A program made the translations under genes and the position numbers. A stretch of DNA of 64,000 nucleotides from Pseudochrobactrum asaccharolyticum (GTDB lineage Bacteria > Pseudomonadota > Alphaproteobacteria > Rhizobiales > Rhizobiaceae), in the NCBI RefSeq assembly GCF_003314995.1, contig NZ_QNRH01000002.1, positions 620,001 through 684,000 of the forward strand. Reading direction: 5' to 3'. Numbering within the stretch: position 1 is the first letter of the stretch; each line of letters opens with the position of its first letter. The notes under the pieces were generated by a model. It made no database searches. It was not told the DNA's origin and saw only the letters and a list, made by a program, of their open reading frames with translations. Shown in pieces: positions 46,494 through 52,954 of the stretch.

Positions 46494-47156
46494 ATGTCCT
46501 CCTCCGCTATCGAAGTTAAAATCTGCGGCCTGAAAACGCCGGAAGCCGTGGAAACCGTGCTGAAAAACGGCGCCAGCCATATCGGCTTTATCTTTTTTCC
46601 GAAAAGCCCGCGTCATGTTGAGCCTGCACAGGCAGCAAAGCTCGCAACAGCCGCCCGTGGCAAAGCCAAAATTGTTGCCGTTACTGTAAATGCCGATGAT
46701 GCGCAGCTTGATGACATTGTCGCTGTGTTGCAGCCTGACATTTTACAATTGCACGGCAATGAAACACCGGAACGCGTGAGCCAAGTTAAACAGCGCTATG
46801 GCCTGCCGGTGATGAAAGCCTTTTCCATCCGCGAAAACAGTGATTTTGACGTAGTCGCGCCCTATCAGGGCATTGCAGACCGTTTTCTGTTTGACGCCAA
46901 AGCGCCAAAGGGCTCAGAGCTGCCGGGCGGCAATGGTGTCTCTTTTGACTGGAACCTCCTGAATGCACGGCAGGATCTGGGCAATTACATGCTTTCAGGC
47001 GGTCTGAACGCAGAAAATATTAATGTGGCTCTTGCCAAAACAGGCAGCTTTGCTATCGACATTTCATCAGGTGTTGAAAGCGAACCGGGCAAAAAAGACA
47101 TCAAACTGATTGATGCGTTTTTTGTAGCCGTGCGTGAAGCAAGCAATACGAAATAA
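46494..47156 (+). CDS. trpF: Phosphoribosylanthranilate isomerase
   Basis: A 220-residue TIM barrel converting N-(5-phosphoribosyl)anthranilate to CdRP in tryptophan synthesis. The catalytic Cys is in [10 protein letters not shown], the Asp in [18 protein letters not shown], and the phosphate-binding loops are [10 protein letters not shown] and [16 protein letters not shown]. It is the first gene of trpF-trpB-x-trpA; trpB begins 50 bases later. Confidence 0.97.
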
Positions 47157-47205: not shown

Positions 47206-48462
47206 ATGTCGAGCGAGCTCAATTCTTTCAAAACCGGGCCGAATGAAGACGGCATGTTTGGTATTTACGGCGGGCGTTTCGTTGCTGAAACCCTGATGCC
47301 GCTGATCCTCGATCTGCAGGCAGCCTATGATGCGGCCAAGGAAGACCCTGAATTTAAAGCCGAGTTGCAGGCGCTCTCCACCCATTATGCCGGTCGTCCT
47401 TCCAAGCTGTATTATGCTGAAGGCCTGACCCGCTATGTGCGTGAACAGGCTGAAGCCAAAGGCGGTAATGCCAATGGCAAAAAAGGCGCGAAGATTTATT
47501 TCAAACGCGAAGACCTGAACCATACCGGCAGTCACAAGATCAATAACTGCCTTGGCCAGATTCTGCTTGCCAAGCGTATGGGCAAAACCCGCATCATAGC
47601 GGAAACCGGTGCCGGTCAGCACGGCGTGGCATCGGCCACTGTTGCTGCCCGCTTCGGTCTGCCATGCGTGGTCTATATGGGCGCAACGGACGTTGAACGC
47701 CAGAAGCCGAATGTGTTCCGCATGAAACTGCTCGGTGCCAAGGTCAATGCTGTGACCGCAGGTAACGGTACGCTGAAAGATGCAATGAATGAAGCCCTGC
47801 GTGACTGGGTCACCAATGTGGAAGACACCTATTACCTGATCGGCACAGCGGCCGGCCCGCATCCTTATCCCGAAATGGTTCGTGATTTTCAGTCAGCAAT
47901 CGGCACTGAAGCCCGCGAACAGATGCTGGAGCGTGAAGGTCGCCTGCCGGATGCGATTATTGCGGCTGTCGGCGGCGGCTCCAATGCCATCGGCCTGTTC
48001 CATCCGTTCCTCGATGATACAACGGTAAAAATCTACGGTGTTGAAGCCGGTGGCCTCGGACTGGATGGTGACAAACATTGCGCCTCCATGACCGCAGGCA
48101 ATCCGGGCGTGTTGCATGGCAACCGCACATATCTGTTGCAGAATGAAGACGGCCAGATTCTTGAAGGCCATTCGGTTTCCGCCGGTCTCGATTATCCGGG
48201 TGTCGGCCCTGAACATTCATGGCTAAAAGATACCGGCCGCGTGACTTATGTGCCGATTTTGGACGATGAAGCACTGGAAGCCTTCCAGATCACCACCCGC
48301 ACAGAAGGTATTATTCCGGCACTGGAATCCTCCCATGCGATTGCACAGGCTCTGAAACTGGCACCGGAAATGGATCAGGATCAGATCATGATCGTCAATC
48401 TCTCCGGTCGCGGTGATAAAGACGTGCACACTGTCGGCGAAATTCTCGGAATGGAAATGTAA
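47206..48462 (+). CDS. trpB: Tryptophan synthase beta subunit
   Basis: A 418-residue PLP enzyme condensing indole with serine. The PLP Lys is in [18 protein letters not shown], the phosphate-binding loop is GGGSNAIG, and the channel/regulatory residues ([13 protein letters not shown]) are present. The start at MSSELNSFK has a GGAAG site; a frame to 47134 overlaps trpF and is less likely. Directly followed by an unknown gene, then trpA. Confidence 0.98.
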
Positions 48463-48465
48463 TTC

Positions 48466-48936
48466 ATGGCCGCTTTATCGCGACAGGGCAGTGATCTATA
48501 CAGCCCCCGTTCCGCATGGTTCGGGCAGGTGATCACTTGCGGCTCTGCACAGATCAAGCTTAACCTTATCAGTGCGCAGTCTGACAGTCTTACCGCCGAT
48601 AAAATTACAGCAGCGGCACAGCAGATCTCTGCTGCTGCCGGTGATTTCAGCGCATATGCGTTGCATGATGCAGGCTTTGCCATACTCCATGAGGGCGAAG
48701 AGGCTTTGTGGCTACTACTCCATCAATGGATTGATGGCGGTATTTGCACTCAGCATCTTTGGCGCTCGGATCTCACGGGTGCGGTCAGTTTCAGACCTGC
48801 GCCCGCGCATTTGATGGCCTGTGTCTGGGAACTCGCTATTATTGATTTTGAACGCAGGGCATGGATAGAGACGGTCATGGCAGGCTTGCCGCACACCGCT
48901 TATTTGTCACGCACGCTGCCACGAGGAAAATTATGA
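48466..48936 (+). CDS. Unknown protein encoded between trpB and trpA
   Basis: A 156-residue protein beginning 3 bases after the trpB stop and overlapping the trpA start by four bases (ATGA), so it is part of the trp transcript and translationally coupled to trpA. No signal peptide or membrane helix is obvious; the C-terminal half is Trp-rich ([45 protein letters not shown]). I do not recognise the family. Codon use resembles its neighbours, so it is not obviously acquired recently. Function is unknown. Confidence 0.82.
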
Positions 48937-49772
48937 CAAGACGTATGGATGAGAAATTTGCAGCCCTGCGTGCTGAAGGCCGCCCTGCTTTGGTCACTTA
49001 CTTTATGGGTGGTGATCCGGATTACGCAACATCGGTTGAAATCATGAAAGCCCTGCCAAAGGCCGGTGCTGATGTGATTGAAATCGGCATGGCCTTCTCC
49101 GATCCGATGGCTGATGGTCCGGCCATTCAGGCAGCAGCCCTGCGCGCGCTGCATGCAGGCCAGACTTTGCCGAAAGCGCTGCAGATGGTGCGTGATTTCC
49201 GCGTGAGCGATGACACAACTCCGATCGTGCTGATGGGCTATTACAACCCGATCTATATTTACGGTGTTGAGCATTTCATCAAGGATGCACTGGAAGCCGG
49301 TATTGATGGTCTGATCGTTGTTGATCTGCCGCCGGAAATGGATAATGAGCTGTGCATTCCAGCGATTAAAGCCGGCATCAACTTCATTCGTCTGGCCACG
49401 CCGACCACAGATGCAAAGCGCCTGCCGAAAGTGCTCGAAAACACCTCCGGCTTTGTTTATTACGTTTCGATGAACGGCATTACCGGTTCAGCTTTGGCTG
49501 ATACAACACAGGTCAGTGAAGCGGTTGCCCGTATCAAGAGCCACACAGACCTGCCGGTTTGTGTGGGCTTTGGTGTCCGCACTGCAGAACAGGCACAGGC
49601 TATCGGTGCTTCAGCTGACGGTGTGGTTGTCGGCTCCGCGATTGTGGCAGCGATTGCCGGTACACTGGATGCCAATGACAAGGTTCAGGGTGATCCTGTT
49701 GCCGCTGCATCGGCTGTTGTCAGTGAACTTGCATCAGGTGTTCGCAAGGCCCGCCTTGCTCCTGCCCAATAA
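48933..49772 (+). CDS. trpA: Tryptophan synthase alpha subunit
   Basis: A 279-residue TIM barrel that cleaves indole-3-glycerol phosphate. The catalytic Glu is in [17 protein letters not shown], the Asp in [13 protein letters not shown], loop 6 is [14 protein letters not shown] and the phosphate loop is [12 protein letters not shown]. The start MTRRMDEKF overlaps the preceding stop by ATGA; GAGG lies about 6 bases upstream. A small hairpin terminator follows. Confidence 0.97.
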
Positions 49773-49800
49773 GCAGCGTAAAATAAACAATTAACAGAGT

Positions 49801-49830
49801 GCCGCAAATTTGCGGCTTTCTTTGTGTTTT
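49801..49830 (+). terminator. Probable terminator of the trp genes
   Basis: GCCGCA-AATT-TGCGGC (49801-49816) forms a short stem followed by TTTCTTTGTGTTTT. It lies 28 bases past trpA. Confidence 0.65.
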
Positions 49831-49889
49831 ATGCATTTTATGTTTAAAGACACAAAAGTTTCAAGTTTTGAGAACAACGGAAAGCCCAT

Positions 49890-50795
49890 ATGAACTGGAT
49901 TACGAATTATGTCCGCCCGAAGCTCAACTCCATGCTGGGGCGTCGGGAAATGCCGGAGAATCTCTGGATCAAGGACCCGTCAACCGGTGAGATGGTGTTT
50001 CATAAAGATCTGGAAAGCAATCAGTGGGTAATCCCTGCTTCCGGTCATCATATGCGTATTCCGGCCAAAGACCGTCTGCGTTTCTTCTTTGATGAAGGCA
50101 AATATGAGACTCTGGAAAGCCCGAAAGTTGCGACCGATCCGCTGAAATTCCGCGACGAAAAGAAATATATTGATCGTCTGAAAGACTATCGCAGCCGCAC
50201 ACAGCAGGATGATTGCATCATCAATGCGACCGGTACGATTGAAGGTCTGCCGATTGTTGCAACCGTGCAGGACTTCGCTTTCATGGGTGGCTCGCTCGGT
50301 ATGGCTGCCGGTGAGGCAATCATTAAAGCAGCTGAAACTGCCCTTGCAAAGAAACGCCCTCTGGTTCTGTTTTCCGCTTCCGGCGGTGCCCGTATGCAGG
50401 AAGGTATTCTGTCGCTGATGCAGATGCCACGCACCACTGTTGCCGTGGAAATGCTGAAAGAAGCTGGCCTGCCTTATATCGTGGTGCTGACTAACCCGAC
50501 CTTTGGTGGTGTAACCGCTTCTTATGCGATGCTCGGCGATATCCAAATTGCAGAACCAGGCACAATGATCGGTTTTGCCGGTGCGCGCGTGATTGAACAG
50601 ACGATCCGTGAAAAGCTGCCGGAAGGTTTCCAGAGCGCGGAATACCTGCTGGATCACGGTATGATTGATATGGTGGTTTCCCGTCTGGAGATGAAAGAAA
50701 CCGTTGCCCGTATCCTGAAAATCATGATGAAGCAGCCTGCGAGTGAAGCGAAAGCTGAGCTTGCTGAAACAGCAGCCCGCGCCGCTTCTGTCTGA
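49890..50795 (+). CDS. accD: Acetyl-CoA carboxylase carboxyltransferase beta subunit
   Basis: A 301-residue subunit that, with AccA, transfers the carboxyl group from biotin to acetyl-CoA for fatty acid synthesis. The crotonase-like core is clear: [35 protein letters not shown], and [17 protein letters not shown]. The N-terminal region corresponding to the E. coli four-Cys zinc ribbon (about residues 26-50) has no Cys here ([12 protein letters not shown]); the protein has a single Cys. It is followed by a strong terminator, then folC. Confidence 0.95.
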
Positions 50796-52465: not shown

Positions 52466-52786
52466 TTAAGCCGAAGCTTTGATCCAGTCAGCCAGACGGC
52501 TCTTTGGTGCTGCACCAACCATATTGGCAGCGATTTCACCATTTTTGAACATCAGCAATGTCGGGATGGAACGTACGCCATATTGCGCTGCCAGTTCCGG
52601 ATTTTCATCGATATTCACTTTGGCGATCTTTACCTGACCGGCCATTTCCGATGAAATTTCTTCCAGAGCCGGTGCAATCATTTTGCAAGGTCCGCACCAT
52701 TCGGCCCAGAAATCCACCACAACCGGTTCAGAAGCTTTCAGCACATCGGATTCGAAATTGCTATTGTCAATTTTAACGGTCGCCAT
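52466..52786 (-). CDS. trxA: Thioredoxin
   Basis: A 106-residue cytosolic thiol-disulfide reductase. The active site is [16 protein letters not shown], with the cis-Pro in [11 protein letters not shown]. The start MATVKIDN has GAGG 6-7 bases upstream; codons up to 52816 are an unlikely extension. It is on the minus strand, downstream of the addAB group with a 168-base spacer. Confidence 0.97.
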
Positions 52787-52954
52787 TGGCTTTCCTCTTT
52801 CACTGATACAGGACATATCCTGAGTTCAAATTCATTATTAGCTGATATGTGGTGTCATTGTGATGAAAGGTCAATAATAAAGCAGTTTCCATGTCAATAC
52901 AGGAGCCGGTTTGTTACCGGAAGCTAGTAACTACAGTTCATGCCTCCCATCCCG

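Follow-up and report, generated by a model that had tools for sequence, protein, structure and literature searches.

The window, a stretch of 64,000 nucleotides from Pseudochrobactrum asaccharolyticum, contains the gene order trpF-trpB-X-trpA-accD-folC, where X denotes an open reading frame that lies between two trp genes and points in the same direction as both (Table 1). The trpB stop codon (48460-48462) is followed by three nucleotides (TTC) and the start of X, while the X stop and the trpA start overlap in the sequence ATGA (48933-48936). The open reading frame proposed in a sequence-only reading of this DNA, including its extent, its distance from trpB and its overlap with trpA, was reproduced. 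Stop-start coupling would link the translation of X to that of trpA. Among the 23 copies read with a -4 overlap, 13 carry an exact four-base match to a ribosome-binding motif near their 3' terminus; counted without a shuffle control, these matches are suggestive of the ribosome binding site of trpA being carried by X itself.

Table 1. Genes and sequence features around X, numbered from the first nucleotide of the window.
Feature	Position	Strand	Remarks
trpF	46494..47156	+	trpF/trpB gap used as control junction
trpB, upstream partner of X	47206..48462	+	418 aa
Near-identical tract relative to locus L019 (genome G001)	48415..49219	+	2 mismatches in 805 nt; probable recent recombination tract including X
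Gene X	48466..48936	+	156 aa; ATG open reading frame
GAGG within 3' end of X	48923..48926	+	6 nt before trpA ATG; possible trpA ribosome binding site
trpA, downstream of X	48933..49772	+	279 aa; start shares ATGA with X stop

Relatives of X were detected in at least 58 of 394 genomes sampled from the window's family (31 between trpB and trpA, 27 elsewhere), in at least 10 of 297 genomes of the order sample and in at least 8 of 398 genomes of the phylum sample. These counts are lower bounds because most profile searches scored the best 9 to 15 candidates per genome. Among 101 relatives, X was found in 18 and trpA in 99, and X was absent from most relatives sampled. Judged by the homologues in the family, a dN/dS of 0.18 against the copy of genome G002 and four residues that never vary among 71 sequences, X is a real gene and no chance open reading frame. 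We examined 73 X-bearing genomes, 58 from the family and 15 from outside, and found X embedded in the trp operon in 33 and elsewhere in 40. Embedded copies beyond the window's family were seen in two genomes (G309 of family f28 and G146 of family f50). The sequence-only reading had asked if homologues always lie between trpB and trpA and had regarded a predominance outside trp operons as evidence against its proposal. The first holds for 33 of the 73 genomes; the second is half borne out by the other 40, yet the 32 trp-embedded rows of the X tree form one branch.

Outside trp operons, the neighbors of X presumably include erpA, def/fmt, purC, metG and argG, as read from their translations, besides other genes in single cases, with gene orders that we take to be def-X-fmt and holB-X-metG. 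In three genomes from three families (L026, L150, L151), X is located directly 3' of or overlaps with what appears to be an erpA-like iron-sulphur carrier gene, and two of these three loci are situated beside presumed dgt- and argS-like genes. By the same reading, X would be close to metG in G013 and G764, to def/fmt in G507 and to pheST in G078, and argS close to erpA-X in G043 and G220. The proximity of X relatives to metG, def/fmt and pheST (L030, L036, L153, L027) points to a possible link with tRNA charging or translation initiation, a lead which arose post hoc. Two queries returned 8 and 10 plasmid records with X in mixed contexts, and the hosts of X-bearing plasmids comprise Alpha-, Beta- and Gammaproteobacteria, a Bacteroidota and a Pseudalkalibacillus. 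On a Xenorhabdus plasmid, an X relative is found near an annotated metG gene. One further copy outside the trp operon (G1003:C23:666565-667007) is split in two by a stop codon.

The X protein showed no Pfam or NCBIfam match. Its best match among PDB sequences had an E-value of 0.17, which we take as chance, and no match was obtained in a phage collection. An alignment of 33 X relatives likewise had no match in PDB sequences or PADLOC and gave weak single-member matches alone in Pfam and PHROGs (best E-values 0.0034 and 0.0023), again taken as chance. As regards a toxin-antitoxin role, X had no Pfam or PADLOC match, and the operon strand carries no candidate partner for it between trpB and trpA. 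Residues K31, H75, W88 and E129 are invariant, inside or outside trp operons, Y146 is kept in all 70 sequences having a letter at this position, and C119 and E122 are each present in 69 of 71, with E122 replaced by D in the other two. X is a member of an unnamed conserved protein family. Based on their conservation, the seven residues would most likely make up a single pocket for ligand binding or catalysis. An AlphaFold2 model (pLDDT 91.9, pTM 0.87) contains strands at residues 16-25, 28-36, 66-76, 80-89 and 93-102 and helices at residues 44-61, 120-135 and 143-148. X is predicted to be a compact, cytosolic alpha/beta protein. Foldseek comparison of this model with PDB and BFVD returned nothing at E < 0.001, and the best structural match, the ToxR periplasmic domain, was middling (Z 5.5, 88 residues, rmsd 4.0). 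The ribosome hibernation factors HPF/YfiA showed a weak partial likeness (best Z 4.4, 77 residues, rmsd 3.3) with a Foldseek E-value of 0.21 at best and no sequence match, and similarity at Z < 8 may reflect a common arrangement only. Given these low scores, the fold of X may be either a known or a new one.

We constructed a protein tree of 71 of the 73 X sequences, omitting G001, whose protein is identical, and G1003, whose copy is an interrupted fragment. All 32 trp-embedded rows fall on one side of a single branch and the 39 others on the opposite side (support 98/94), with none of the unlinked rows placed inside the trp branch. One lineage of the unnamed X family is thus resident between trpB and trpA. 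This lineage is also marked by individual residues, as counted in 71 sequences (33 trp-embedded and 38 others, the short G805 and G1003 being left out): W99 is found in 33 of 33 embedded copies and in 0 of 38 others, F128 in 32 of 33 and 4 of 38, and W82 in 33 of 33 and 10 of 38. The four-base overlap between the X stop and the trpA start is present in 24 of the 33 embedded copies. The remaining computed gaps are 1, 1, 3, 4, 51, 51, 51, 337 (with CutA in between) and 490 nt, and the trpA start of G309 lies 3 nt earlier than computed. In one genome (G890; L215/L025), with TrpB 83% and TrpA 70% identical to those of the window, X groups with G019 and G768 and TrpB does not. This discordance points to recombination close to where trpB ends and X begins.

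Within the window's genus, four of seven genomes (G003-G006) have a clean empty trpB/trpA site with a gap of 6 and intact trp genes. Two loci, L019 and L020, were equated with genomes G001 and G002 because their coordinates and identities agree. Compared with L019, X differs at 1 of 471 nucleotides and encodes an identical protein. The near-identical tract that surrounds it, with bounds picked after the mismatches were seen, ends inside trpB and inside trpA, while mismatches amount to ca. 5.8% over the rest of the 3900 nt compared. It is the longest but not the sole near-identical stretch, since shorter blocks of the window, e.g. 49796-49945 and 52543-52842, are also 99-100% identical to L019; none is as long. 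We consider it probable that X and its trp flanks were recently exchanged between two species whose sequences elsewhere are about 6% different. A comparison with G002 gave a dS of 1.0 for X versus 0.37 for trpB and 0.52 for trpA, and the low dN/dS of X in the same comparison indicates purifying selection. Taken together, the tract, the empty sites, the excess of dS over both neighbors and the dN/dS imply that X probably has a history of its own, is maintained by selection and can move via recombination in trpB and trpA. The L019 record (JAHREI010000001.1) is titled Bacillus subtilis SK6B4. Its trp proteins are 94-98% identical to those of the window, and it evidently is a mislabelled record that belongs to the window's alphaproteobacterial genus.

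Eighty trpB-trpA junctions were read in addition to the X-bearing ones. A census with one genome per genus found the junction empty in 26 of 51 family genera, occupied by CutA in 12, by X in 6, by both in 2 and by other genes in 5. It covers 51 of 55 sampled genera (trpA was not matched in G011 and G046, nor trpB in G029; these and G050 were left out), and its calls rest on matches and gap lengths, so that the CutA class may include extra inserts beside CutA. The trpF/trpB junction served as a control. Here, 42 of 45 loci had trpF no more than 200 bp from trpB, one had it at 217 bp and two had no trpF in the stretch, whereas the trpB/trpA gap exceeded 200 bp in 19 of 44 of the same loci (Fisher p 6e-5, all three trpF exceptions counted as open); six loci had been dropped from this control as their stretch was too short for trpF, a loss that is heavier among loci with long inserts. 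The trpB/trpA junction is an insertion hot spot in this bacterial family, and trpF/trpB is almost closed. Pfam searches with ten junction ORFs identified ParE, CutA1, ArsC and SnoaL in the family and FMN_red and DUF559 elsewhere in the order, together with two RHH matches under the curated cut-off and two ORFs that received no name. Pairs of RHH antitoxin-like and ParE/RelE toxin-like genes were seen between trpB and trpA at five loci (L080, L087, L088, L090, L192), and an RHH-like ORF alone was seen before X at two (L022, L023). The Pfam test of these residents comprised the L080 pair and the L022 ORF. On a TrpB tree of 103 junctions, 24 changes are needed for the filled or empty state, 13 for X and 12 for CutA, with the tree being biased by the deliberate inclusion of 21 X-bearing genomes.

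CutA was the other common resident of the junction. It was found in 32 of 237 family genomes at 33 places, all of which follow trpB. At 32 of them, trpA is located on the other side of CutA, in some cases beyond further inserts. In the remaining case (G753), CutA follows trpB and the next 5 kb contain no trpA match. Outside the family, none of 14 CutA-bearing genomes of the order had CutA at trpA by coordinates, and in one of them the two were on the same contig 10 kb apart. One genome (G862; L226, L248) has two trpB-CutA-trpA clusters. To our knowledge, the function of CutA is unsettled. Its occurrence at no other place in the 237 family genomes hints that some junction residents may have a reason to be there.

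The reading that we regard as probable is that X is an accessory cargo gene which occupies a hot spot for insertions in the trpFBA operon and is coupled to trpA. The sequence-only reading had offered two interpretations, a role tied to tryptophan supply and an unrelated conserved passenger. The latter is better supported, since roughly half of the genera read have other genes at this junction, X is present in some genomes of the genus and missing from others, and its flanks have apparently recombined. The site would be favored because a gene placed exactly between trpB and trpA would be transcribed with a housekeeping operon. Insertion would also be cheap for the host, as the ATGA overlap, perhaps assisted by a purine-rich 3' terminus of the insert, would re-supply the trpA start. 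The job of X itself would then be independent of, and dispensable for, tryptophan synthesis. Two observations sit less easily with such cargo. First, a random passenger would be expected to wander, yet the trp-embedded copies are no random draw from the family, as their single branch and the exclusive W99 attest. Second, CutA is confined to the trpB-side junction throughout the family genomes sampled. Exchange via the flanks, or conservation of gene order combined with loss, also explains the confinement of both the X clade and CutA.

A dedicated helper of tryptophan synthase, or of indole or tryptophan handling, made in step with TrpB and TrpA, would fit the same confinement, although we regard this as rather unlikely. 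One X clade is found only at trpB/trpA and in three families of the order (f1, f28 and f50), it mostly retains the four-base overlap with trpA and it carries its own residue marks at positions 99 and 128, while CutA, which is fused to X in three genomes, is likewise restricted to the junction in the genomes sampled. However, TrpAB evidently works without X, since about half of the genera, and the majority of the genomes of the window's genus, have nothing between trpB and trpA. Further, X members elsewhere keep the same invariant residues, and other, unrelated genes occupy the site. A helper role retains some plausibility through the strict confinement of the trp clade and CutA. A more speculative extension, which we consider unlikely, is that Alphaproteobacteria carry a facultative TrpAB accessory module consisting of X, CutA or a CutA-X fusion. 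These would be alternative helpers that bind TrpAB or a ligand of it and come and go as cassettes when the flanking trp genes recombine, with X being the first member of a new family and possibly of a new fold.

X might alternatively work with CutA, for example in metal handling, both having been brought into the trp operon together. We find this improbable. CutA1 (PF03091) shares the junction with X and is fused to it in G024, G055 and G750, with the CutA half of the G024 fusion reaching a Pfam E-value of 4e-32, and G835 has the order trpB-X-CutA-trpA. Conserved His, Cys and Glu residues and the location of X at an iron-sulphur carrier gene in three genomes, which we take to be erpA-like from its translation, would also be in line with such a partnership. 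X forms a separate C-terminal part of the fusions, and the CutA1 model matched neither the X of the window nor any of the 33 aligned X relatives (X part only). Against a partnership, the two genes are distributed independently per genus (both in 2 of 51, Fisher p 1.0), CutA is absent from 29 of the 33 X junctions and C119 is lost from two of the erpA-linked members.

The final possibility is that X acts as a translational sensor in which ribosomes slowed at Trp codons tune trpA to the tryptophan supply. X indeed has a Trp content of 3.8% compared with 1.1% over 54 long ORFs of the window (a set without X, as X overlaps a longer ORF), and trpA, trpB and trpF contain 0, 2 and 1 Trp residues. The C-terminal half is Trp-rich as the sequence-only reading had stated, but its count of six Trp in about 75 C-terminal residues has to be corrected to five (residues 82-133), the six of the whole protein being located at residues 18, 82, 88, 99, 121 and 133. 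Trp-embedded copies contain on average 6.33 Trp (33 sequences) and the others 5.03 (38 sequences), with shared descent uncorrected, and adjacent Trp residues (WW) occur in 26 of 33 embedded copies. This difference rests largely on W82 and W99 and thus on one clade of the tree, and WW is also found outside trp operons, in 22 of 38 copies. High Trp content mostly characterizes the X family as a whole, since W88, W121 (68 of 71) and W133 (54 of 71) are conserved regardless of trp context. In the X of the window, 23 codons separate the last Trp codon from the stop and Trp codons never stand next to each other, so the clustered, adjacent Trp codons looked for just before trpA, as in an attenuator or leader peptide, are lacking; in relatives, X often has one WW pair far from the end. 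Moreover, ribosomes stalled within X when Trp is scarce would presumably reduce the translation of trpA, which is the wrong sign. A demand sensor is very improbable given the position of the Trp codons, their family-wide conservation and this expected sign.

In conclusion, we describe a sharply local insertion hot spot in a core biosynthetic operon, where trpB/trpA is open in about half of the genera and trpF/trpB is almost closed, and at least one resident of this junction seems to spread in place by flank recombination. X represents an unnamed conserved family whose structure is predicted with confidence and has no clear counterpart among the folds searched, and the confinement of CutA to one site in a bacterial family is puzzling. 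Species that have or lack junction residents make the question of TrpAB helpers directly testable. Our search of the open-access literature yielded no publication that deals with X or with the presence of CutA in trp operons. As far as this search shows, the X family, the junction census, the recombination tract and the confinement of CutA are new.

Genes in this position have a precedent. Unknown genes between trpB and trpA are reported for a Sargasso contig and for some Flavobacterium and Burkholderia, and such interposed genes are considered as possible morons or possible helpers (PMC2395257). Like such morons, X is located between two co-directed trp genes and is absent in close relatives with intact trp genes. 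The parts of that source available to us name no family for the trp-operon morons, whereas the present case comprises one family with a trp-embedded clade, polymorphism within a genus and a recombination tract, and its junction is surveyed across one bacterial family.
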